Positions 25,042-38,608 of a stretch of DNA of 64,000 nucleotides are shown in pieces. The notes beneath the pieces are model-generated. The model was not told where the DNA came from and did not search any database. It saw nothing but the letters and a program-made list of their open reading frames with translations. The stretch comes from Burkholderiales bacterium (GTDB lineage: Bacteria > Pseudomonadota > Gammaproteobacteria > Burkholderiales > SG8-41), in contig JALHRQ010000007.1 in NCBI GenBank assembly GCA_022841375.1, forward strand, positions 62,001 through 126,000, given 5' to 3'. The translations under genes and the position numbers were made by a program. Every line of letters starts with the position of its first letter. Position 1 is the first letter of the stretch.

Positions 25042-25416
25042 CTACTTCGGTTTTTCCGGCAGGCGTGGTGAAGGACGCCGACCATCGATGATATGCAGGA
25101 TGCCCAGTATGGGGTGGCGACTCAACATGCGCGGTCCCGTCCAGCGCATAACGATCCGTACCTGCTCGCGCTTGTCCGCGCTGTAACAGTGAACCAGGCA
25201 ATTAGTGCAGGTTGGCTTGGCATCACCAAAGACGCAACGCTCCAGCCTGCGACCCGCATACTCCAGCAGTTCGTTGCAACTTGCACACAGTAGCGCTCGC
25301 GGCTGGTGTCCGTGGGCGCGGCAATACATGCGCAACATGGCACCTATGGTTTTTAACTCGCGCGCACGACGTACGAAGCGTTTGTCAGTGACGAATGGGA
25401 TTGTCTGGTTGGGCAT
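25042..25416 (-). CDS. ygbA: YgbA family protein (nitrous-oxide-stimulated promoter family)
   Basis: A 124-residue cytoplasmic protein matching the YgbA_NO family. It has ELKTIGAMLRMYCRAHG, LCASCNELLEYAGRRLERC, PTCTNCLVHCY and VMRWTGPRMLSRHP. The cysteine pairs (CASC, CTNC, HCY) may bind a metal or cluster. The family is NsrR-regulated in enterobacteria and tied to the nitric-oxide response, which fits norR, norA, norB and nnrS nearby. A start ten codons earlier is possible. No certain NO-responsive operator was found upstream. Confidence 0.8.
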   Translation of the reverse strand: MPNQTIPFVTDKRFVRRARELKTIGAMLRMYCRAHGHQPRALLCASCNELLEYAGRRLERCVFGDAKPTCTNCLVHCYSADKREQVRIVMRWTGPRMLSRHPILGILHIIDGRRPSPRLPEKPK

Positions 25417-25520
25417 TGATGCGTCCGATTCTCCGGGCGAAACCAAAAAACTTTATTGCTCCAATCCTGCGCGCTCTAACATGCCTGCCATTGATTCCAC
25501 AGTTTGACCGCAGCCCCGAG

Positions 25521-25580
25521 CTGGGCAAAGCTGGGCACTGGCGCGAAGTCAATTACTTGGTCTGAATGTCCGCTTTCGAC
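25521..25580. repeat. Dispersed repeat, copy D
   Basis: This copy contains ctgggcaaagctgggcactg, then gcgcgaagtc and ctgaatgtccgctttcgac. It aligns with copies A, B and C. It lies 65 bases from the OrfA relic, the only place where the repeat is next to recognisable transposase coding, so it could be the end of that element or of another insertion. Confidence 0.6.
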
Positions 25581-25644
25581 TGCGGATTCAACCGGTCAGC
25601 GCAACATTCTATGCTCCAACGGGCGAGAGAGGATGCTGCAAATG

Positions 25645-25784
25645 AAGCTGAGACCCGCTTGCGCCAAGTGTAAATCGTCTGCTAGCTGACTTTGTGCTTC
25701 CTGGCCATTTCGGGAACCGGCATCTTGTCCGCCTCCCGTAGGATCTTGACCATTTTGCTCTTCGGTGAATCTGCTCGTCTTCAT
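25645..25784 (-). pseudogene. IS3-family transposase OrfA remnant
   Basis: The frame opens MKTSRFTEEQ, the classical start of IS3-group OrfA. It then continues one base out of frame as MVKILREADKMPVPEMARKH, KVS, a TAG stop, QTIYTWRKRVSA. Those segments are the normal OrfA helix-turn-helix. A one-base insertion and a nonsense codon therefore inactivate it, and OrfB is absent. Confidence 0.8.
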
Positions 25785-25909
25785 GGGCTCCACGCTAGCG
25801 GGCGAGAGCCATTCTATCAAGTTACGGTTGACCCTGAAAACTGGGGCAAGTCACCAGGTCGCTTCAATGGCAGAGAATCCCCGGTAATCGCGGGTGATCA
25901 AAAGGCCCT

Positions 25910-26062
25910 ATGCAAGCAATCGCAGAACAGATTTACTCGATTTTTGATCAATTGGGCTACTTCGCGATCTTCTTTGGCGTCATGCTTGATAACGCAGGAT
26001 TTCCGGTTCGGGGGGAACTGGTATTGCTGATAACAGGCAGTCAGGTTGCGAAGCAGGAGTTA
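25910..26062 (+). pseudogene. Truncated DedA family N-terminus
   Basis: The first 51 residues (MQAIAEQIYSIFDQLGYFAI, then FFGVMLDNAGFPVRGELVLL) match the start of DedA membrane proteins, whose usual length is about 200 residues. The reading frame then runs without a stop into an unrelated downstream coding sequence. In the usual DedA motif a proline stands where this sequence has FPVRGE. The remainder of the DedA domain is missing, so this is a stub created by deletion or insertion. Confidence 0.7.
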
Positions 26063-26101
26063 CTGATGATACCCGTGCACTTTGAAAAAGGACCAAACGC
26101 G

Positions 26102-26404
26102 ATGACCGAGCGCATCACAGCATGGCAGTGCATCGGCTGCGGGCGGATCGAGGGCGCGCAGCCTTGTGTCGGGATTTGCGAGGACCGCAAGACGGATTTC
26201 GTGTACGCCTCCGACCACGACGAGGTGATCGCGCAGTTGACGTTCGCGCGCCGGCGGACGGAAGTTCTTGCTGCATTGGTAAGCCAGCTTGCGCACACGA
26301 CGCCGCGCGAGGGCGAGTGGGAACGCACTTACCGCGCACTGCAGGCGCGCGCGCGTCGGACTCTGGCGGCGCTTGCCGGCGATGAACAATCCAGGCCAAC
26401 GTAA
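26102..26404 (+). CDS. Small cysteine-motif protein of unknown function
   Basis: A 100-residue protein. Near its N-terminus it has WQCIGCGRIEGAQPCVGICE, holding four cysteines arranged CxxC-x8-CxxxC that could bind iron or zinc. The rest is helical and basic with no membrane segment. The ATG at 26102 starts the recognisable domain; an ATG at 26066 and an in-frame fusion with the DedA stub are alternatives. I do not recognise a named family. It lies between NO-related genes, so a role in nitrosative stress is possible but only by position. Confidence 0.55.
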   Translation: MTERITAWQCIGCGRIEGAQPCVGICEDRKTDFVYASDHDEVIAQLTFARRRTEVLAALVSQLAHTTPREGEWERTYRALQARARRTLAALAGDEQSRPT

Positions 26405-26681
26405 CTGTTTTCATGTATCGCGGTCATCGCCAGCGCCGATTCGAATGGCCTTATCGTGCACGCGAAAGGGATTGATTTTGGCCACGACAAGAAGATCAAT
26501 GAAATGGCATGGCGTGGCGTGTCGTGTTCATCGCACAAACGCGCGCGGGAGCAGATCGGCTGGTGGCCAGACTGAAGTTCTTCGTGATGCGGGTGCCGGC
26601 AAACGCTCGCACCCGGCGCGGACGAACGCAGCCAAATCGGATTCGTCGGTTCGCCGGCATACTTCCTATTAAGTTGCAGGA

Positions 26682-27443
26682 ATGATGCGCAACGATCAAG
26701 CGGGTTCAGACCGGCCAGACGTGCATGGCCGCAAAGTAAAACCGCGCCGATTCGTCGCGGGCAGTACGGTTTTCTTCCCGGCAGCGACGCTCTACGCGAT
26801 TTTCGTTCTGCCCGCGTCCGTGTTCTCAATGCTCGGGTTCACGGGCGCATTGCCGGCGCTGGCGTCTACGACTGGACATACGCACGAGATGCTGTTCGGC
26901 TTCGCGCTGGCCGTGGTCGCCGGCAACCAGCTGGGCCCCATGCCTCTGCTGCGCCTCGCCCTGCTGGCCGGGCTGTGGGTGATCGCACGGGCAGCGTTTC
27001 TCTTTGCCCCGCAAAGCCTGACGGCGGCCGTGGCCAATATCGTGTTCGCTGCGCTGCTTGCCGCGCATCTTGCGCCGCGGCTGCTCGGGGCCGCAAAAAA
27101 GCTGCGCAACCAGGCGTTGCCGTTGGTGCTGATGGCTATTTGCGTCAGCGGCATCGCATTTCATCTCGCACCTCACGCCGGCTTTACCGCCGCTGGCCAC
27201 ACTATACTCACCGTTGCGGTCCTGCTTTTCGCCCTGCTGATGATTTTCATGGGTGGACGGCTCATCGCGCCAACGGTCGCCGGCCAGTTCTACCGGCAAG
27301 GCGGCAAGCTCGACGCCCGTGTGCAGCCGCGCATCGAAGGCGGGCTGCTCGCCGCCATGGCAGTTGCCGCCGCGGCGTCGATGTTCGCCGGCGAGCCGCT
27401 GTTCTTCATGCTGGCGGCCGTTGGCGGGATTGGCGATGTTTGA
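26682..27443 (+). CDS. nnrS: NnrS family haem/copper membrane protein, interrupted
   Basis: A 253-residue polytopic membrane protein with NnrS features: FFPAATLYAIFVLPASV, then GHTHEMLFGFALAVVAGNQL (about residues 67-86), and later IFMGGRLIAPTVAG. NnrS proteins are usually about 390 residues and help cells withstand NO. Here a TGA stops the frame. The same frame continues for 31 codons as another hydrophobic segment (SSLLLVIASAAWSSAFALLL) before a TAA at 27537. The protein is therefore truncated, and probably a pseudogene or a shortened form. A gcagga site precedes the ATG. Confidence 0.7.
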   Translation: MMRNDQAGSDRPDVHGRKVKPRRFVAGSTVFFPAATLYAIFVLPASVFSMLGFTGALPALASTTGHTHEMLFGFALAVVAGNQLGPMPLLRLALLAGLWVIARAAFLFAPQSLTAAVANIVFAALLAAHLAPRLLGAAKKLRNQALPLVLMAICVSGIAFHLAPHAGFTAAGHTILTVAVLLFALLMIFMGGRLIAPTVAGQFYRQGGKLDARVQPRIEGGLLAAMAVAAAASMFAGEPLFFMLAAVGGIGDV

Positions 27444-27728
27444 TCCTCACTGTTGCTCGTGATTGCATCGGCAGCCTGGAGCAGTGCGTTTGCCTTGCTG
27501 CTTGTGTTACTTGTTCGTTTTCGAACCATCAAGGTTTAATGCGCATTATGGATGCGGCACTCGCTCGGTAGCAGCCGTTGGATTTGGGATGCAGGAATTG
27601 AGCTCACGTCCGCAAGCACGTCACAATCAGGAGAGCGCATGTGCGAATCGGAGCTGATTCCAAGCAATGGATAGCGCCCGGATTCAGAGTTGATTCAGTG
27701 GACGCGGGCGCCAGGCCGCAGTGCGCAG

Positions 27729-29267
27729 TTACGACTTGATTCCCAGTCGTCGCGCCAGCTTGTGCAGATTGCTTGGATCCACTTGCAGTTGTCGGGCAGC
27801 CCGGGCCCAGTGGCCATTGTGTGCCGCGAGGGCCGAGCGGATCGCTTGACGCTGGCAAACATCGACTGCGTGACGCAGTGTGTTGCCGTCGTGCGCTGTG
27901 GTGACCGCCGCAGTTGTGTCGACCGTCGCTGCCGGGGGTGGAAATTCCAATCCGTCGAGGTCCATCAGGTTGGCTTGCAGGGTGATGATGTCGTTTCGAT
28001 TCACGCCTCGGCTGACCGCTTTGAGCGCGGCCCGGCTGATCACGTGTTCGAGCTCGCGCACATTGCCGGGCCAGTGATAACGGCACAACGCTTCTTCGGT
28101 TTCGACGGACAGGCGCAGGCTGCGCAACCCCAGGCGCGCTCGATTCAGTTCGAGGAAGTGACCGGCCAGCATCAGCACGTCATTGCCGCGTTCGCGCAGT
28201 GGTGGAATCGGGATGGGATAGACCGACAGCCGGTGATAGAGATCGGCACGGAACGAGCCATCGCGCACATGATCGCGCAGACTGCGATTGGTGGCGGCAA
28301 TTATCCTCACGTTCACATGCAGGGGCTGATCGGCACCCAGGCGCTGGATTTCCCCGTTCTGCAGCGTGCGCAGCAATTTGGCCTGCACAGCGAGGGGCAG
28401 CTCGCCGACCTCGTCTAGTAGCAGCGTGCCGCCTTCGGCGGCCTCGAAGCGACCTGGTCGATCGCTCACTGCACCGGAGAACGCGCCTTTGACATGGCCG
28501 AACAACTCGCTCTCGGCCAGCGATTCCGGCAGTGCCGCGCAGTTGACATGGATCAGCGGGTGATCGTGCCGCCGTGACAGCCGGTGCAGCCGGTGGGCAA
28601 AGAGCTCCTTGCCAACCCCGGTTTCACCGAGCAGCAGCACGGGCAATTCCGAGTCGGCCACGACTTCCAGTTCGTGCAGGAGGCGTCCGATGGCTTCGCT
28701 ATGACCGATGATTTTGCTGTCCTCGAACAGCGGCCCGGTGAGGACTGACGGCGCGCTGCGCGCGAGACGCAGCGCGCGAGTCTCGGTTTCCAGCCGCGTG
28801 ATGCGGATGGCGGCTTCGATCAGCATGGTGAACCGCTGCAGGTCAGCCTGGGTGTCCGCGTTGAAGGTGGTTGCCTGCAGTGCATCCAGTGTGATGGCAC
28901 CCCAAAGCATCCCCTCGATGTACAGGCTTGCGCCCATGCAGTCATGCACAGGCAGCGGTTCGCCGGGGTGCGCATCAATCAGGCCGTCATAAGGATCGGG
29001 CAGGCCGCTGTCATGATCGAAGTAGGTCACGCCGCGACGGGCAAGTATGGCGGCCAGCCGGGGATGCTGACCCATTGCGAAACGGCGGCCCAGTACGTCC
29101 TGGACCAAACCGTCGACCGCAATGGGGCGCAGGTGCTCACTGTCCAGCTGTAGCAGCACCACGGCGTCGCAGCCAAAGTGTGTGCGCAGGGTACCGACCA
29201 GTCGTTGCAACCGGACTGCTGACGGCAACTCGGCGATCAGATCGGCCAGTAGTAAATGATCAATCAT
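27729..29267 (-). CDS. norR: NorR, nitric-oxide-sensing sigma54 activator
   Basis: A 512-residue regulator with three domains. The N-terminal GAF domain (about residues 20-165) binds the NO-sensing mononuclear iron in the family. The central AAA+ domain (about 190-420) has Walker A GETGVGKE, Walker B GGTLLLDEVGELPL, and the sigma54-contact loop GAFSGA, where most members have GAFTGA. The C-terminal Fis-type helix-turn-helix (about 470-510) ends NLHKLARRLGIKS. It is divergent from norA-norB, and its start codon directly abuts the first of three NorR sites, so it probably represses or modulates itself. Confidence 0.92.
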   Translation of the reverse strand: MIDHLLLADLIAELPSAVRLQRLVGTLRTHFGCDAVVLLQLDSEHLRPIAVDGLVQDVLGRRFAMGQHPRLAAILARRGVTYFDHDSGLPDPYDGLIDAHPGEPLPVHDCMGASLYIEGMLWGAITLDALQATTFNADTQADLQRFTMLIEAAIRITRLETETRALRLARSAPSVLTGPLFEDSKIIGHSEAIGRLLHELEVVADSELPVLLLGETGVGKELFAHRLHRLSRRHDHPLIHVNCAALPESLAESELFGHVKGAFSGAVSDRPGRFEAAEGGTLLLDEVGELPLAVQAKLLRTLQNGEIQRLGADQPLHVNVRIIAATNRSLRDHVRDGSFRADLYHRLSVYPIPIPPLRERGNDVLMLAGHFLELNRARLGLRSLRLSVETEEALCRYHWPGNVRELEHVISRAALKAVSRGVNRNDIITLQANLMDLDGLEFPPPAATVDTTAAVTTAHDGNTLRHAVDVCQRQAIRSALAAHNGHWARAARQLQVDPSNLHKLARRLGIKS

Positions 29268-29325
29268 GGTAAATACGACCCTTCTAGGGTTTTATATACC
29301 CTAATAGATTGCGGTTAATATTACC
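29268..29325. promoter_or_regulatory. Three NorR enhancer sites, GGT-N7-ACC
   Basis: Exact GGT-N7-ACC elements occur at 29268-29280, 29288-29300 and 29313-29325. This is the core sequence established for NorR binding upstream of norAB in Ralstonia. Their starts are 20 and 25 bases apart, and all lie upstream of the sigma54 promoter for norA. The first begins at the base next to the norR initiation codon. Confidence 0.88.
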
Positions 29326-29365
29326 ATCATAATTATAATACATTGATTTAATGAATTAATTTTCT

Positions 29366-29379
29366 GGTACGGAATTCGC
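29366..29379 (+). promoter_or_regulatory. Sigma54 (-24/-12) promoter of norA-norB
   Basis: The sequence ctGGtacggaattcGCat has the invariant GG and GC dinucleotides separated by exactly ten bases, at 29366-29367 and 29378-29379. It lies downstream of the three NorR sites and about 40 bases before the norA start codon, so transcription would begin near 29391. Confidence 0.82.
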
Positions 29380-29419
29380 ATATAGACCATCAGTCGTATT
29401 TCATTCATGGAGATTTGAT

Positions 29420-30100
29420 ATGAACCTGATTGACCAACCCATAGGCCAACTGGCGCGCCGTATTGCTGGGGCCACCCGCGTGTTCCACGAACATCAGCTC
29501 GACTTCTGCTGCGGCGGTAAACACAGCCTGCGCGAGGCGGCCGAAGCCCGCGGCCTGGATGCGGCGACAATTGCCGAGCGGCTGGCGCAGTTACAGACTT
29601 CCGGGCTGCCCGGTGAACGCGACTGGAATGCGGTACCGCCGACCGAGCTGATCGACCACATTCTCGAGCGCTTTCACGAGCGTCATCGCGAGCAGTTGCT
29701 CGAGCTTATCCGGCTCGCACGCCGGGTTGAACAGGTGCACGGTGAACGCGCGGACTGTCCCGCCGGTCTTGCAGATCATCTGTCGGCAATGCACCAGGAA
29801 CTGGAAAGCCACATGCAGAAGGAAGAACAGGTGCTGTTTCCGATGCTCCGTAGCGGCTACGGTGCCGCGGCCTCGGGTCCGGTTGCGGTGATGCGCATGG
29901 AACACGATCAGCATGGCGTAGCACTTCAGCGTCTTGCCGAACTGACTCGCGATTTCACATTGCCACGTGATGCCTGTAACACTTGGCGAGCGCTGAATCT
30001 CGGGCTGCGCACCTTCCGCGACGACCTGATGCAGCATATCCACCTGGAAAACAACATCTTGTTCGAGGGCGCTCCGGACATCCGGATGGCGCAGGTCTGA
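29420..30100 (+). CDS. norA: Iron-sulfur cluster repair di-iron protein (NorA/YtfE/RIC family)
   Basis: A 226-residue protein. The N-terminal ScdA-type domain contains DFCCGGKHSLREAA (about residues 27-40). The C-terminal hemerythrin-like domain carries the metal-binding histidines in LIDHILERFHERH, HQELESHMQKEEQVLFPML, MEHDQHG and HIHLENNILFE. The family repairs NO-damaged clusters or buffers NO. It is the first gene after the NorR-controlled sigma54 promoter, matching the norA-norB arrangement of Ralstonia. A ggag site is placed correctly before the ATG. Confidence 0.93.
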   Translation: MNLIDQPIGQLARRIAGATRVFHEHQLDFCCGGKHSLREAAEARGLDAATIAERLAQLQTSGLPGERDWNAVPPTELIDHILERFHERHREQLLELIRLARRVEQVHGERADCPAGLADHLSAMHQELESHMQKEEQVLFPMLRSGYGAAASGPVAVMRMEHDQHGVALQRLAELTRDFTLPRDACNTWRALNLGLRTFRDDLMQHIHLENNILFEGAPDIRMAQV

Positions 30101-30166
30101 TCGAGTGTCGTCCGCTGGCGCAGCCACTGACAACATTCATCGATAGAAGAAAGCGAGATTTACACC

Positions 30167-32461
30167 GTGGGTCCTTATCGCAAACTGTGGTTCCTGCTGA
30201 TCGCCGTGCTGGCGGTTACCTTTTCCCTGCTCGGCTATTACGGTAGCGAGGTCTATCGTCATGCACCGCCGATCCCGGCTCAGGTTACTGTCGCCGAGGG
30301 CAGGGTGTTGTTCTCGAAGGACGACATCCTGGATGGGCAGACAGCCTGGCAGTCCGTCGGTGGCATGCAGCTTGGCTCGATCTGGGGGCACGGAGCCTAT
30401 CAGGCGCCGGACTGGACGGCGGACTGGTTGCATCGTGAACTAACGGCCTGGCTGGATTTGGCGGCCCAGGAGGCACACGGCCAGCCGTTTGCCTCGCTGG
30501 ATGCTGCGCGCCAGTCAGTGCTGCGCGAGCAGCTCAAGACGGAATACCGTTCCAACAGGGTTGACCCGCAGACCGACGTGCTCAAGGTGTCGGTGCGGCG
30601 TGCCAAGGCAATCGCCGTGACGGCTACCTATTACGATCAACTGTTCTCCGATGCCGTTGCGCTGCGCAAAAGCCGCGAGAGCTTCGCAATGAAGGAAAAT
30701 ACGCTGCCCGATGCTCAACGGCGCCTACAGCTCACAAGATTCTTTTTCTGGACCGCCTGGGCTGCGGCTACTGAGCGGCCCGACGCGAAAGTGACTTATA
30801 CCAACAACTGGCCGCATGAACCGCTGATCGACAACCGGCCGAGCACCGAGAACATCCTATGGTCGATCGCCAGTATCGTAGTGCTACTGGCCGGTGTTGG
30901 TTTTTTGATATGGGCATGGGCATTCCTGCGCCGGCACGACGAGCCGCTGCCTGCGGCCGCAGCCAGTGATCCGTTGACTGCCTTCACCCTGACACCGTCG
31001 CAGAGGGCATTGGGCAAGTACCTGTTCCTTGTCGTCGCGCTGTTCGTGTTTCAGGTATTCGTAGGCGGTTTCACCGCGCACTACACTGTCGAGGGGCAGC
31101 AGTTCTACGGCATCGACGTCTCGCAGTGGTTTCCATACACGCTGATGCGTACCTGGCATATCCAGAGCGCGCTGTTCTGGATCGCCACCGGATTCCTCGC
31201 CGCGGGGCTTTTCCTCGCACCGCTGATCCACGGAGGCAAGGATCCGAAATACCAGAAGCTGGGCGTGGACATCCTGTTCTGGGCGCTGGTCGCGGTGGTC
31301 GTGGGGTCGTTCATCGGCAACTACCTGGCGATTGCGCAGATCATGCCGAAGGAATGGAATTTTTGGCTAGGCCACCAGGGCTACGAATACGTCGATCTCG
31401 GCCGTCTATGGCAGATCGGCAAGTTCGCCGGCATTGTGCTGTGGCTGGGCTTGATGCTGCGCGGCATTGTGCCGGCACTGCGCCAGCCGGGTGGCGACAA
31501 GAATCTGCTCGCTTTGCTGACCGCCTCGGTGGGAGCGATCGGGCTGTTCTACGGCGCCGGCTTTTTCTACGGCGAGCGCACCCACCTTTCGGTAATGGAA
31601 TACTGGCGCTGGTGGGTGGTGCACTTGTGGGTGGAGGGCTTCTTCGAAGTCTTCGCGACCACCGCGCTCGCGTTTGTTTTCTCGACGCTCGGCCTGGTGT
31701 CGCGGCGGATGGCGACGACTGCCAGTCTGGCCTCGGCCTCTCTGTTCATGCTTGGCGGCATTCCCGGCACATTCCATCATCTGTACTTCGCCGGCACAAC
31801 TACGCCGGTGATGGCGGTGGGTGCGAGTTTCAGCGCGCTGGAAGTTGTGCCGTTGATCGTGCTGGGCCTTGAAGCCTGGGAGAACTGGCGATTGAAGGCG
31901 CGCGCGCCGTGGATGGAGAGCTTGCGCTGGCCGTTAATGTGCTTCGTCGCCGTGGCCTTCTGGAATATGTTGGGTGCTGGCGTATTCGGTTTCATGATCA
32001 ATCCGCCGATTTCGCTGTACTACGTGCAAGGGCTGAACACCACGCCTGTGCATGCGCATGCCGCGCTGTTCGGGGTCTATGGTTTCCTGGCACTGGGTTT
32101 CACGCTGATGGTGCTGCGGTACATCCGGCCCGGATATGCGTTGAGCGACGGGCTGATGAAAACCGCATTTTGGGGACTGAACGCCGGGCTGGTCTTGATG
32201 ATCTTCACCAGTTTGCTGCCAATCGGGTTTATACAATTCCACGCCAGCGTCAGCGAGGGCCTGTGGTATGCCCGTAGCGAGGCCTTCATGCAGCAGCCGC
32301 TTCTGCAGACACTACGCTGGGTGCGCACGATCGGCGACTTGGTCTTTATCGTTGGCGCATTGGCGATGGCACTGGGGGTGGTTCGCGGATTGTCAGGGCG
32401 CCGAGATTCGCAGCCAGCCGTGACGGCAGGCGGGGTTGCGCTGGATACGCGCGCGCGATAA
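30167..32461 (+). CDS. norB: Quinol-dependent nitric oxide reductase NorB (qNOR)
   Basis: A 764-residue single-subunit NO reductase. The N-terminal helix and periplasmic domain of about 220 residues, including GQTAWQSVGGMQLGSIWGHG, correspond to the NorC-like extension of qNOR. The haem-copper-oxidase core of about twelve helices follows, with the first haem ligand in TWHIQSALFW. Further family histidines appear in WVVHLWVEGFFEVFATTALA and FHHLYFAGTTTPVMA. It reduces NO to nitrous oxide with quinol electrons at the inner membrane. The start is GTG, 66 bases after norA, in the same transcript. Confidence 0.95.
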   Translation: MGPYRKLWFLLIAVLAVTFSLLGYYGSEVYRHAPPIPAQVTVAEGRVLFSKDDILDGQTAWQSVGGMQLGSIWGHGAYQAPDWTADWLHRELTAWLDLAAQEAHGQPFASLDAARQSVLREQLKTEYRSNRVDPQTDVLKVSVRRAKAIAVTATYYDQLFSDAVALRKSRESFAMKENTLPDAQRRLQLTRFFFWTAWAAATERPDAKVTYTNNWPHEPLIDNRPSTENILWSIASIVVLLAGVGFLIWAWAFLRRHDEPLPAAAASDPLTAFTLTPSQRALGKYLFLVVALFVFQVFVGGFTAHYTVEGQQFYGIDVSQWFPYTLMRTWHIQSALFWIATGFLAAGLFLAPLIHGGKDPKYQKLGVDILFWALVAVVVGSFIGNYLAIAQIMPKEWNFWLGHQGYEYVDLGRLWQIGKFAGIVLWLGLMLRGIVPALRQPGGDKNLLALLTASVGAIGLFYGAGFFYGERTHLSVMEYWRWWVVHLWVEGFFEVFATTALAFVFSTLGLVSRRMATTASLASASLFMLGGIPGTFHHLYFAGTTTPVMAVGASFSALEVVPLIVLGLEAWENWRLKARAPWMESLRWPLMCFVAVAFWNMLGAGVFGFMINPPISLYYVQGLNTTPVHAHAALFGVYGFLALGFTLMVLRYIRPGYALSDGLMKTAFWGLNAGLVLMIFTSLLPIGFIQFHASVSEGLWYARSEAFMQQPLLQTLRWVRTIGDLVFIVGALAMALGVVRGLSGRRDSQPAVTAGGVALDTRAR

Positions 32462-32537
32462 GCGGGGCGGTAACGCATGGCCATGGTAAATAACAAAGGC
32501 CAAGAGGAATACTAAGGCTGCTGACAAGTCCAGGGTC

Positions 32538-33728
32538 ATGGAAAACTGGAGCGAGATAAAGGCATGGCGCAAAGGGCAGCGCGGGGAGTTGATCGCCGCG
32601 AGGGTTGCTGTTGCGCCGGCCCAACGCAAGACCTGGGGCGAACGGATCACGACGTTGCTGGAAACGGGTTTCGCGGTGCCATCCGGCGCGGTCGTTGGTT
32701 TCTGCTGGCCGTACAAGGGTGAGTTTGATGCGAGGTTTGTCGTTCGACATTGGTGCCAGCAGGGACTGACAGCCGCATTGCCGGAGGTGGTCGAGAAGGC
32801 CCATCCGCTCCAGTTCCGCAAATGGTGGCCGAGCGCGCCGATGAGGCCTGGCGTGTATGACATTCCGGTTCCCGATGGCACGGAGGTGCTGCTACCCGAT
32901 GTGATGGTGGTGCCGATGAACGGTTTCGACGAGCAGGGCTACCGCCTGGGCTACGGTGGCGGCTATTTCGACCGCACACTGGCCGCCCTGCAGGGGCGCG
33001 TGCTCACGATTGGAGTCAGCTTCGAGGTGTTGCGTTTGCCCACGATCCATCCGCAATGGCACGACATCCCGATGGATTTTGTCGTGTCCGAAGCAGGCAT
33101 TTACCGCGCGGGAGGCAGAAAACTGGTGCCGCTCGATGCGGAGGCGTGCGCGGACAATGCCGGGGATTTGCTGCAAAGCCGCGGCTTGCCGCGCCAGCGC
33201 CGATCGTCATCGATGGCCGTAGGGATGACGCAGGGGGCGAGTGGCTACAGTTCGCCGGCCTGTTATGCGCACGAGATCGCGCCGGACTACTTTGGGGAGT
33301 CGCAGGTAATGCCAGCGGAAGAACTGGTCGGATTGCTCAATGAGTTGCTGGAAGCGGAGCGAGCCGGTGCGAAGGTGCTTTCGGCATTCCTGAACGATTA
33401 CGAGCGGGATACGCTGACGTGGAAACGGCTGGCCGCCGTGCAGCGGGACGAGGCGAAGAACTGCGTGGTGCTGATGGACTTGATCCGCGGTGTGAATAGC
33501 ACGCCGAGCGCAGCGACCGGAGATTTTCTGGGTAAGGCGCTGGCGGTGGAGGGCAAAGTGGCTCGGCTGCAATTCCTTAACCGCGGACAGCAATGGGTGG
33601 CACGCAGGATCGGCGAAGCGCTGCCACGCCTGGAGCAAGACTTCGTGCGCGGCGCACTTTTCGTCATGCACGAGTCTCTTCTGCTCAATATCGAAGCGTG
33701 TGATGCGCTGGTGGAATTGGAAACCTGA
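32538..33728 (+). CDS. 5-formyltetrahydrofolate cyclo-ligase fused to a DUF6306-like domain
   Basis: A 396-residue two-part protein. Residues 1-200 are a 5-formyl-THF cyclo-ligase-like domain with GFCWPYKGEFD, VPMNGFDEQGYRLGYGGGYF and DRTLAAL. Residues about 230-396 form a helical domain resembling DUF6306, beginning SPACYAHEIAPDYFGES, then LLNELLEAERAGAKVLSAFL, with ferritin-like acidic and helical spacing. The domains are joined by a polar linker with no internal stop, although ATGs inside could start the second part alone. It lies 76 bases after norB. A role in NO stress is suggested only by position. Confidence 0.75.
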   Translation: MENWSEIKAWRKGQRGELIAARVAVAPAQRKTWGERITTLLETGFAVPSGAVVGFCWPYKGEFDARFVVRHWCQQGLTAALPEVVEKAHPLQFRKWWPSAPMRPGVYDIPVPDGTEVLLPDVMVVPMNGFDEQGYRLGYGGGYFDRTLAALQGRVLTIGVSFEVLRLPTIHPQWHDIPMDFVVSEAGIYRAGGRKLVPLDAEACADNAGDLLQSRGLPRQRRSSSMAVGMTQGASGYSSPACYAHEIAPDYFGESQVMPAEELVGLLNELLEAERAGAKVLSAFLNDYERDTLTWKRLAAVQRDEAKNCVVLMDLIRGVNSTPSAATGDFLGKALAVEGKVARLQFLNRGQQWVARRIGEALPRLEQDFVRGALFVMHESLLLNIEACDALVELET

Positions 33729-33739
33729 TAGTAGTGATC

Positions 33740-33886
33740 ATGAGAACAGCCAACAGGTATAAAGTCGCAGCCTTTGTCTTGCTTTCAGCGTTGGCTGCGG
33801 CGGTATCCGCCGACGACAGGACGAAGCGGTCTCTCATCAATGGCAGCTACCGGCAGATCTGCTTCCGGGAATTAGCCACGAGTTGA
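33740..33886 (+). CDS. Short secreted peptide or truncated exported protein
   Basis: A 48-codon frame starting MRTANRYKVAAFVLLSALAA. It has a clear signal-peptide pattern with likely cleavage after VSA, followed by only about 24 mature residues containing one cysteine. No strong ribosome binding site precedes it. It may be the beginning of an exported protein cut off by later rearrangement. The next 200 bases hold no supported gene. Confidence 0.3.
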   Translation: MRTANRYKVAAFVLLSALAAAVSADDRTKRSLINGSYRQICFRELATS

Positions 33887-34089: not shown

Positions 34090-34467
34090 TTACGCCAATT
34101 CGAGCCGATCGTTCTGCGAGAACGGATCGATGTTGATCCGGAGCGAATGAATGGTCGTCGTCGGTACCTTGCGACGATCGACATTCTTCAGCCGCACGAA
34201 ACCAATGGCTACAAGCTTGCCCAGGGTGCGTGTAAGGTTAGGTTGTGCGCGGCCCGTCAACTCCGCGAGCTCGGCAATTGACTGCGGTTTTTTATCCCGA
34301 ATAATGGCCAGGAGCTCACGGTTCTGAGGTGTCAGCAACCGTAACAGCGCCTCGACAGAGTCGACTGTCGTGCCCCCGGCGTCCTTCGGTGCCAACCTCT
34401 CCCCACGTGCAACAGCCTTCATTTCCTCACGCAGGGACGCATGGCCTTGAATCTTGATATGTTTCAT
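34090..34467 (-). CDS. Helix-turn-helix antitoxin of a TumE/DUF6516 module (TumA-like)
   Basis: A 125-residue DNA-binding protein. The MarR/winged-helix-like segment SIAELAELTGRAQPNLTRTL (about residues 63-82) is followed by GFVRLKNVDRRKVPTT. The N-terminal half is short and charged. This kind of regulator is the usual partner of DUF6516/TumE toxins. It overlaps the toxin gene upstream by 4 bases and is the second gene of the pair. It probably neutralises the toxin and represses the operon. Confidence 0.75.
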   Translation of the reverse strand: MKHIKIQGHASLREEMKAVARGERLAPKDAGGTTVDSVEALLRLLTPQNRELLAIIRDKKPQSIAELAELTGRAQPNLTRTLGKLVAIGFVRLKNVDRRKVPTTTIHSLRINIDPFSQNDRLELA

Positions 34468-34871
34468 GGGCGATCTCCTTCCGTTACTTCAACGATCTCG
34501 AACGGGATGCCGTGCTCGGTGAGCACGCGTTCGACCTCGTAGAAAAAATCAATAATCAATGTTTCAGCGTCCTTAAACGCATATGGACGGCCCTCGTCTG
34601 TTTCCGTTCGATGCCAGTGATCCATCGCTTTAGGACGCTTCTTGAACCGCGCCCCCTTGGCCGGAACACTGTGTGCATTGTCAAAACCGATCAGCCGCCG
34701 GTTGTCTGGACCATGCAAGGTAAACGAGTAGTCCAGTCCATGCGGTTTTCCATCGTTCGCTACTACTTTCGTGATCTCAAACTTCAGCCAATAACCGCCA
34801 GCGTAACGGTGCACATGCCCGTTGAAACCCAGCAAGAATTCAAGCGTATGTGCGCCGCTCTTTTTTGGCAT
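34464..34871 (-). CDS. TumE/DUF6516 family toxin
   Basis: A 135-residue protein resembling the DUF6516 (TumE) toxin family: GGYWLKFEITKV, LDYSFTLHGPDNRRLIGFDN, then DHWHRTETDEGRPYAFKDAE and LIIDFFYEVERVL. The mode of action of the family is not known to me. The toxin precedes the antitoxin, less common than the reverse. An 8-bp palindrome TCACGTGA at 34886-34893 upstream may be an operator. The pair lies near the recombinase and probably stabilises this mobile block. Confidence 0.7.
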   Translation of the reverse strand: MPKKSGAHTLEFLLGFNGHVHRYAGGYWLKFEITKVVANDGKPHGLDYSFTLHGPDNRRLIGFDNAHSVPAKGARFKKRPKAMDHWHRTETDEGRPYAFKDAETLIIDFFYEVERVLTEHGIPFEIVEVTEGDRP

Positions 34872-36525: not shown

Positions 36526-36765
36526 TTGGAACATGAATACGCAATGGTTGATGCCATGCTGACCAGGGAGATGATTCTGCCGCTGGTCAACGCACGGCTT
36601 AACCGCGTGCTGCTGATCGCGCAGGCCGCACTCCCGGAACACCAGTTCGAGGCGTTTCGCCGGCTCATTCTGGACGAATTCGGCAGAGCCGGGCTCATCA
36701 GGGATCTGGACACGATCGCTGATGCGTCCCGGCCGGAACGGCACGGTACGGGCAGGACCACTTGA
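36526..36765 (+). CDS. Small protein upstream of the recombinase
   Basis: A 79-residue frame with a helical core: REMILPLVNARLNRVLLIAQ, then HQFEAFRRLILDEFGRAGLI. Start choice is uncertain: TTG at 36526, ATG at 36544 and ATG at 36556 are all in frame. A separate 9-codon frame starting at 36533 after a gagga site ends across the last of these, which could couple translation. Small genes of this kind often precede large serine recombinases on mobile elements; the function is unknown. Confidence 0.5.
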   Translation: MEHEYAMVDAMLTREMILPLVNARLNRVLLIAQAALPEHQFEAFRRLILDEFGRAGLIRDLDTIADASRPERHGTGRTT

Positions 36766-36789
36766 GCAAAGAAGGGAGGTGTAGCATGA

Positions 36790-36939
36790 TTGCAAGCACA
36801 GAACCCTGAAGTCTCGATCGAGTTCAGTCCGGACATCTCGCAGGACGCCGTGTCGTGCGAGGAACTCGATCTCATTCAAGCGCATTTCGCGGGCCTCCTT
36901 CGCCAGTTGCTGATCGAGGCCGACTCAAGCCAGAACTGA
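36790..36939 (+). CDS. Small acidic protein upstream of the recombinase, TTG start
   Basis: A 49-residue frame that must start at TTG because a TGA directly precedes it. The strong gggagg site at 36774-36779 is well placed for this start. The sequence includes VSIEFSPDISQDAVSCEELD, then LIQAHFAGLLRQLLIEADSS. It is acidic and helical at the C-terminus. Its stop is 11 bases before the recombinase ATG. I recognise no family. Confidence 0.5.
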   Translation: MQAQNPEVSIEFSPDISQDAVSCEELDLIQAHFAGLLRQLLIEADSSQN

Positions 36940-36950
36940 GGAGCCAGGCT

Positions 36951-38597
36951 ATGGATGTGGTGATCTACGCCCGTGTGTCCACGGGCAAGCAGGTGGAGAA
37001 CGATCTCTCCATTCCCGATCAACTGCGCCAGTTGCGTGAGTGGACCAAGGCGCAAGGCCATTGCCTGGTCTCGGAATACGTCGAGGCAGGGGCGACGGCC
37101 ACCGATGACCGCCGCCCGGTGTTCCAGCAGATGATCGGGGATGCGGGTTTGTCACCGCCGCCGTTCGAAGCCATCATCGTCCATAGCCTCTCCCGGTTCT
37201 TTCGCGATGCCCTCGAATTCGGGCTCTACGAGAGAAAGCTTAAAAAGGCCGGCGTGAAGGTCATTTCGATCACGCAGCAAACGGGCGACGACCCGTCCGG
37301 CGAGATGGCTCGCAAGCTCTTCAGCCTCTTTGACGAATACCAGAGCAAGGAGAACGCCAAGCACACCCTGCGTGCGATGAAGGAGAACGCGCGGCAGGGC
37401 TACTGGAACGGTTCGCGCGCGCCGTTCGGTTACCGCGTGGTCGATGTGGGGGTTGCCGGTTCGCGGGGTCGGCAAAAGCGCCGGCTCGAAGTGGACCCGG
37501 TGGCTGCCGAGACGGTACGCAAGATCTTTGACCTGTATCTGCAAGGGCATCACGGTCGCAGGATGGGCATGAAAAACCTAGCGGCCTACCTGAACGACCA
37601 CGGTATGACCCTGCGCGGCAAACCCTGGCGCATGCAGAAAGTGCATGATGTGCTCTCGGACCGGGTCTACATGGGCGAGTTCTACTTCAACCGCCACGAC
37701 TGTCGCACGGCCAGGATCAAGCCGCTCGCCGAGTGGATCAAGGTGGACGTGCCTGCGATCGTTGACGAAAAGACCTTCGACCGCGTTGCGGCGCGCCGAC
37801 ACGCCCAGCACCCCAGCAGAATACCGGGGCAACAGTTGGCGTCCCCGGCCATTCTCATCGGGTTGATGAAATGCGGGCACTGTGGCGCCAGCATGACGCA
37901 GGCGACGGGCAAGAGCGGGCGCTATCGCTACTACAAATGCACCACCCGAATGGGTATCGGCGTGCACCGCTGCACTGCCCGCAACCTCGCCCGCGAATCG
38001 ACGGAGCAGATTGTTCTTGCCACCCTTGCCGACAAGGTGTTTACGCCCAGTCGGGTGGAGATCATGTTCCGGGAATTAAGAAAGCGTCAGCGCGCCACAC
38101 GCAGTGCGGAGGATGCCCGGTTCCAGCAATTGACGCGGGAATTGAAGGAAATCGACGCCGGCATTGCGCGCCTGTATGAAGCGGTCGAAAAAGGGCTGCT
38201 GCCGCTGGACACAAGGCTCCAGGAGCGCTCGCAGAAGCTCCAGGCACGCCGACAGGACGTGGTGGTCGCCAGCGCCGCACTGCGCGATTCATGGGATGTC
38301 CCGCTGAACAGGCTCACGCCGGCCCATGTCCAGAAATTCACACGAGCGCTGAGGACCCGGTTGCTCGATACCACCTCGGGGTTCGGCAAGGCCTATCTGA
38401 ACCTGCTGGTGGAAGAGATCCGGCTCAAGGGTGACGAGTTGCACATCCGGGGCAGCTATCGTGCCTTGGCGCGTGCCGTCACGTTATCAAAAGAGGCGAA
38501 GCTGGGGGAGGTGCCCAGCTTCGTACCAGATTGGCGCGCCCGAGACGATTCGAACGTCCGACCCCTGCCTTCGGAGGGCAGTACTCTATCCAGCTGA
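36951..38597 (+). CDS. Large serine recombinase (site-specific integrase)
   Basis: A 548-residue recombinase. The resolvase domain (about residues 1-150) opens [18 protein letters not shown] with the catalytic serine. The recombinase domain covers about 160-280. A zinc ribbon with MKCGHCGAS and [14 protein letters not shown] lies at about 305-345, and a coiled-coil region follows at about 380-450. A gaggag site precedes the ATG. The last residues (about [18 protein letters not shown]) are encoded by the antisense strand of tRNA-Arg, which provides the stop codon. It probably integrates an element at that tRNA. Confidence 0.9.
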
Positions 38598-38608
38598 GCT
38601 ACGGGCGC
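38532..38608 (-). tRNA. tRNA-Arg (anticodon CCG)
   Basis: The minus strand begins GCGCCCGTAGCTCAGCTGGA and folds as a complete cloverleaf. The acceptor stem is GCGCCCG/CGGGCGC, the anticodon stem CTGCC/GGCAG encloses the loop CTCCGAA with anticodon CCG, and the T-arm contains GTTCGAATC. A CCA end is encoded at 38532-38534. Length is 77 bases. The 3' part overlaps the serine recombinase gene in antisense, and this is a likely chromosomal attachment site. Confidence 0.95.

Follow-up and report, generated by a model that had tools for sequence, protein, structure and literature searches.

A predicted NorR-controlled nitric oxide detoxification module with a folate cyclo-ligase–DUF6306 fusion in a Burkholderiales bacterium

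Introduction

Why should a folate enzyme stand at the end of a set of nitric oxide (NO) defence genes? NO targets iron, haem and thiols; NorB turns it into N2O with quinol electrons, and YtfE/NorA deals with damaged iron centres. In the stretch of Burkholderiales DNA analysed here (64 000 nucleotides, referred to as the window), norR, norA and norB are accompanied by a gene for a 5-formyltetrahydrofolate (5-formyl-THF) cyclo-ligase fused to a domain of family DUF6306. An earlier description made without database searches (the sequence-only reading) had placed these genes, together with ygbA and nnrS, in one NO-defence cluster with insertions.

Materials and methods

For the comparison of gene neighbourhoods, 17 plasmid regions with a cyclo-ligase and eight with DUF6306 were chosen by hand, with a view to diversity, from record lists with 139 (30 shown), 25, 60 and 22 entries. 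Around the 17 cyclo-ligases the stretch examined was 8 kb on each side for three regions and 5 kb for the others, one region being clipped by the start of its record.

Results and discussion

The norR, norA and norB genes and their predicted promoter

The norR gene (27729–29267, reverse strand) encodes a sigma-54 activator with an equivalog match to NF003451 (713.9 bits, cut-off 476). Its GAF (PF01590) and sigma-54 AAA (PF00158) domains scored above their cut-offs and its Fis-type helix–turn–helix (PF02954) slightly below (21.5 against 22 bits). On the forward strand, norA/ytfE (29420–30100; NF008221, 342.3 bits, cut-off 254) encodes a di-iron protein with ScdA_N and haemerythrin domains, and norB (30167–32461) encodes a quinol-type NO reductase of 764 residues in which a NorC-like N-terminal domain (PF22085, 237.4 bits) and the haem-copper core (PF00115, 207.6 bits) form one chain. 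The N-terminal domain contains no cysteine, i.e. no haem c motif. The sequence-only reading had recognised these three genes and ygbA and had called the norA–norB part intact; the family searches found all four to be intact.

Three NorR-type boxes (GT-N7-AC, consensus from PMC1274295) lie in tandem on the forward strand at 29269, 29289 and 29314 (spanning 29269–29324), followed by a sigma-54-like promoter, TGGTACGGAATTCGCA, at 29365–29380 (forward strand). The sigma-54 pattern had been loosened to admit this site and gave no second match in the window. Tandem boxes upstream of a sigma-54 promoter are the arrangement described for NorR targets in PMC1274295. In 5000 dinucleotide shuffles the 152 bp norR–norA intergenic region never gave three boxes within 60 bp; such triplets occur in two further places in the window, where single boxes are at chance level (156 against 161.8 expected). 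The surroundings of ygbA, of a four-cysteine gene and of nnrS contain single boxes without a tandem set. All three boxes and the sigma-54-like site, the latter identical, are retained before norA in a further copy of these genes on contig C32 (L005). The earlier proposal that NorR controls the genes is thereby supported for norA, norB and the fusion, as far as promoter sequence can indicate.

In Ralstonia eutropha (PMC1274295) norR likewise occurs with a norA–norB target, whose sigma-54 promoter is preceded by three GT-N7-AC boxes in tandem. The locus described here differs in having norB followed by the cyclo-ligase/DUF6306 fusion; the main text on R. eutropha never mentions 'folate'.

The sequence-only reading had noted that no nitrite reductase is nearby. 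In the whole genome there was no match to NirS (PF02239), and NirK (TIGR02376) matched with only 51.7 bits, the cut-off being 296.3. Contig C3 carries genes that resemble nitrate reductase (judged by eye from the translations), followed by an nnrS gene that is intact by family. The lack of a NirS match and of a NirK match above the cut-off, together with the nitrate-reductase-like genes, suggests that NO is a by-product for removal and not a step of full denitrification. The gene content thus supports detoxification, as had been favoured from the start.

The adjoining ygbA–nnrS segment

Beside these genes lies a decaying NO-related segment. The ygbA gene (25042–25446, reverse strand) belongs to family PF11756 (132.8 bits, cut-off 25) and is also recognised by NCBIfam. 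An IS3-like transposase relic between ygbA and nnrS, noticed earlier, was found at 25657–25823 by DNA identity to Burkholderiales plasmid sequences; identity was 72–78% in the best ten of 46 plasmid records, two of these ten being annotated as IS3 transposase (about 73%). Two other elements reported from the same interval fared less well: no Pfam match supports the DedA stub, and the 'repeat' amounts to short imperfect repeats of 14–30 nt. The nnrS gene (26682–27443, forward strand) had been described as interrupted. It is indeed incomplete, covering model positions 9–229 of 371 and so falling short of the full-length membrane protein encoded by its intact paralogue on C3, but it is a truncated relic: seven full-length NnrS queries found no C-terminal remainder in the window. 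A weak match on the opposite strand (36639–36869, residues 171–246, E = 0.011) was considered as the missing piece and taken as chance.

The CxxC protein of the sequence-only reading proved to be real and conserved. Its homologous part begins at an internal ATG (26102–26404, forward strand), and seven aligned sequences share four invariant cysteines (C10-x2-C13-x8-C22-x3-C26). None of the seven members reached a Pfam cut-off (best E = 0.0068), comparison with solved structures gave nothing convincing (best E = 0.055), and searches of plasmids and of viral contigs gave no match and no relative, respectively. Counting its own genome, the gene was found in eight of 200 genomes of the order, and a profile found it in three of 369 genomes of the class. 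NnrS is present in all eight of these genomes against 103 of the 200 overall (chance 0.004, kinship uncorrected). DUF6306 occurs in six of the 200 genomes; the four-cysteine gene is present in three of these six, two of them from a single genus (chance 0.0008). In one genome (L060) the gene lies four bases past the norB stop codon, and it adjoins a cyclo-ligase in both L063 and L065, which are different species of genus g10. We put this family, absent from Pfam, forward as a candidate for an NO-related role.

A second occurrence of the module

The 6.1 kb from 27672 to 33743 (norR, norA, norB and the fusion) occur twice in the assembly. By DNA comparison, contig C32 (11.4 kb) of the same assembly matches them as a single block of 93.7% identity that starts 57 bp beyond the norR stop codon and ends 15 bp beyond the fusion, and the flanks of the two copies differ on both sides. 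The sequence-only reading was largely right, but its single cluster is better described as two units, this recurring module and the decayed segment with single boxes only.

On C32 a 3' fragment of tRNA-Pro(GGG) precedes the block by about 50 bp. C13 carries the complete tRNA, and other 3' pieces of it lie on C18 and C21, a pattern that would fit an integrated island. The tRNA-Pro tail is absent from the window at up to three mismatches, the one partial match there lying inside a tRNA-Arg. The qNOR domain was not found in the four other genomes of the same genus or family (among 200 searched), which suggests that the module was gained.

The block on C32 could instead come from a related strain or an assembly contaminant and not be a second copy within one cell. 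C32 is only 11.4 kb long, contamination of the assembly is given as 2.14%, and a related strain could also give 93.7% identity. Such an origin would have to accommodate flanks unlike those of the window copy on either side and a tRNA-Pro fragment that, with the sequence preceding it, matches other contigs of the same assembly. We regard it as a possibility of some weight, though a doubtful one, and continue with the reading that 27672–33743 is a transferable NO-detoxification module, which we think probable as part of the overall explanation given below, its mobility being presumed.

Between the two copies, silent and non-silent codon changes number 65 and 10 in norB, 67 and 21 in norR, 22 and 16 in norA, and 57 and 43 in the fusion, which changes faster than norB.

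Several other genes were observed near the two copies. Just downstream of the module in the window (34090–34871) are a TumE-like toxin gene and an adjoining gene for a MarR/HVO_A0114-type regulator, likely a toxin–antitoxin pair. A few kilobases downstream, the frame of a large serine recombinase (36855–38608) ends within a tRNA-Arg(CCG), as is typical of integrated elements. Downstream of the copy on C32 (L005, 6718–10669) are a KaiC-like ATPase and a PAS/Crp-type regulator.

The cyclo-ligase–DUF6306 fusion

The cyclo-ligase fusion noted earlier (32538–33728, forward strand) was confirmed by TIGR02727 (123.8 bits) and PF19825 (100.8 bits). The model predicted for it has a mean pLDDT of 87.5. 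Its first part is assigned to the 5-formyl-THF cyclo-ligases by the TIGR02727 score and by the MTHFS fold of the model, and the motif residues G138, G140, D145 and R146 are kept in 20 of 20 aligned sequences. DUF6306 is modelled as a ferritin-like four-helix bundle (fold comparison by VIA-align), an assignment that belongs to the predicted structure. Compared with bacterioferritin and Dps-like bundles (PDB entries 8w1d, 9qq5 and 1bcf), DUF6306 seems to keep part of the di-iron ligands, namely E274, E305 and mostly H381, by residue offset and not by superposed coordinates; C309 is also conserved. The fused domain probably contributes a metal or redox site, or else a surface for assembly. Compared with 5-formyl-THF cyclo-ligase itself (MTHFS; PDB entries 2jcb, 3hy6 and 1sou), the fusion has an extra S-P-x-C-x-x-H-E peptide and the ferritin-like domain, and it sits in an NO module.

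Among 15 DUF6306 sequences H381 is missing from the window copy alone. Together with the codon changes, which are faster than in norB, this suggests that the fusion may be decaying.

The shared peptide

The linker between the two domains contains the peptide S-P-A-C-Y-A-H-E (33252–33275, forward strand). Within the genome its DNA pattern matched only the two fusions (two matches), and the control gave none. Elsewhere the peptide, as S-P-x-C-x-x-H-E, stands near the N-terminus of alphaproteobacterial cyclo-ligases and at the C-terminus of some others, and in L088 it precedes a DUF6306 domain with no upstream cyclo-ligase; a variant, S-P-V-C-x-x-D-E, lies between nitronate monooxygenase and DUF6306. 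A plasmid search with the peptide gave 25 records, 24 of them annotated (23 cyclo-ligases and one B3/4-domain protein). A search with the consensus, which overlaps this list, gave 60 records, 26 of them with a named feature (24 cyclo-ligases, one DUF6306 and one hypothetical protein). That a movable peptide is common to both families supports a functional tie between cyclo-ligase and DUF6306, on the evidence of their sequences.

A DNA pattern for S-P-[AP]-C-x-x-H-E proved too loose over 399 genomes of the order: 114 of them matched and many control columns were nonzero. Ten of these matches, picked by eye, comprised two cyclo-ligases with a C-terminal peptide, two small frames of 61 and 128 codons in similar surroundings, one frame of 24 codons and five that looked unrelated. 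The peptide thus also occurs in small frames of two other genomes and is not strictly confined to the two families. L142, L143 and L146 contain small open frames whose peptide, similar to S-S-P-P-C-Y-x-H-E, resembles the cyclo-ligase tag.

In the literature searched, which covered few subscription papers, neither DUF6306 nor the letters of the peptide were mentioned, and no paper was found, in part judging by titles, that links this cyclo-ligase to NO gene sets.

Gene neighbourhoods of related cyclo-ligases

Globin, NnrS, Hmp or nitronate monooxygenase was found near a related cyclo-ligase in ten of the 17 hand-picked plasmid regions; an Rrf2 regulator and a globin were each present in eight. 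In the other seven regions none of the four was found, one of these having Rrf2 and a CMD gene. The peptide was seen or listed in the 15 regions other than those of Roseovarius and Croceibacterium. As a small control, 100 kb taken from two of those plasmid records hold 82 features, and none of these is one of the four. The fullest alphaproteobacterial sets run Rrf2, group III truncated haemoglobin, haemerythrin, (CMD, DUF488, nitronate monooxygenase), cyclo-ligase, NnrS, and partial versions also occur. In the Rhodobacterales plasmid sets of Defluviimonas (L102) and Paracoccus zhejiangensis (L162) the cyclo-ligase directly precedes NnrS and follows nitronate monooxygenase or a haemerythrin-domain gene. 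These sets have Rrf2 and haemoglobin where the module has NorR and NorB, and no annotated DUF6306 fusion.

In species genomes an nnrS match lay near three of 11 cyclo-ligase loci (L045, L046 and L047, the last also with truncated-haemoglobin, CMD and Rrf2 matches), and the query proteins found nothing NO-specific at the other eight. The closest fusions, L037 and L038, showed no NO gene with these queries, bar DUF488-like and Crp/Fnr-like matches in L038; nor did the four stand-alone homologues of the same genus (L068, L069, L089 and L090) or the adjacent cyclo-ligase/DUF6306 pairs (L066 and L086). The open frame behind the L039 fusion resembles nitronate monooxygenase by eye. Of the 37 genomes with a match, 35 had a single listed cyclo-ligase of this kind, so that the type can be the housekeeping enzyme. 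A 6S RNA was considered beside the cyclo-ligases of C15, L068 and L069; no 6S match was obtained.

The survey points both ways, for a non-random association in ten hand-picked regions and against it in seven and at the closest fusions; on balance the association of the folate enzyme with NO genes seems not to be random. It bears directly on the possibility that the locus is an ordinary norR–norA–norB operon with the fusion as a chance passenger that has no role in NO defence. That L037 and L038 adjoin unrelated genes and that the fusion changes fast between the two copies would fit a passenger. Its presence inside both copies of the module would not, nor would the related cyclo-ligases beside NO genes in Alphaproteobacteria and beside the four-cysteine gene in the two g10 species, and we consider a passenger unlikely. 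The folate-enzyme fusion of the sequence-only reading stands, but 'added' undersells a gene that is shared by both copies and has relatives among NO genes elsewhere. The NO-defence set may well include this unusual folate enzyme, with which the module ends.

Proposed function

The explanation that we favour overall, and hold to be probable, is a NorR-driven, transferable NO-detoxification module in which the cyclo-ligase protects the folate pool. NorR would sense NO and, through the three upstream boxes, drive the sigma-54 promoter of norA, norB and the fusion, which would be transcribed as an NO-induced operon. NorB would turn NO into N2O using quinol electrons, and YtfE/NorA would handle damaged iron centres. 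The cyclo-ligase would use ATP to bring 5-formyl-THF back into the pool of active one-carbon folates and would thereby compensate for the block or damage that NO causes in folate metabolism; the ferritin-like domain would probably offer the metal or redox site or assembly surface. In Staphylococcus xylosus folD, folB, folK and folP are up under reactive nitrogen species, as reported in PMC4266091, which is compatible with a folate role under NO and is not proof of it.

The cyclo-ligase-like protein may act on another substrate, such as tetrahydrofolate that is N5-nitrosated or damaged in some other way; the chemistry would then come from the ferritin-like domain. NO genes recur as neighbours of the protein's relatives, and DUF6306 is also found at the C-terminal end of an annotated nitronate monooxygenase encoded beside hmpA, Rrf2 and nnrS. 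Since the cyclo-ligase fold and the glycine-rich motif look normal, we consider such a substrate quite improbable and retain 5-formyl-THF in the favoured scheme.

More tentatively, cyclo-ligases tagged with the peptide, some of them carrying a fused ferritin-like domain, might form an unreported arm of the bacterial nitrosative-stress response. They would preserve or repair tetrahydrofolate in the presence of NO, and NorR-type and Rrf2-type sets would have recruited them separately. If a folate enzyme recurs among NO genes that answer to two unrelated types of regulator, one-carbon metabolism would stand out as a specifically protected target. DUF6306 gains a likely fold, from the predicted model, and a genomic context.

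Two further gene families were seen repeatedly near cyclo-ligases: genes for HPP-family membrane proteins (L103, L105, L107, L110 and L164) and DUF488-family genes (L038 by a tblastn match; L102, L103, L106, L109 and L164 by annotation).
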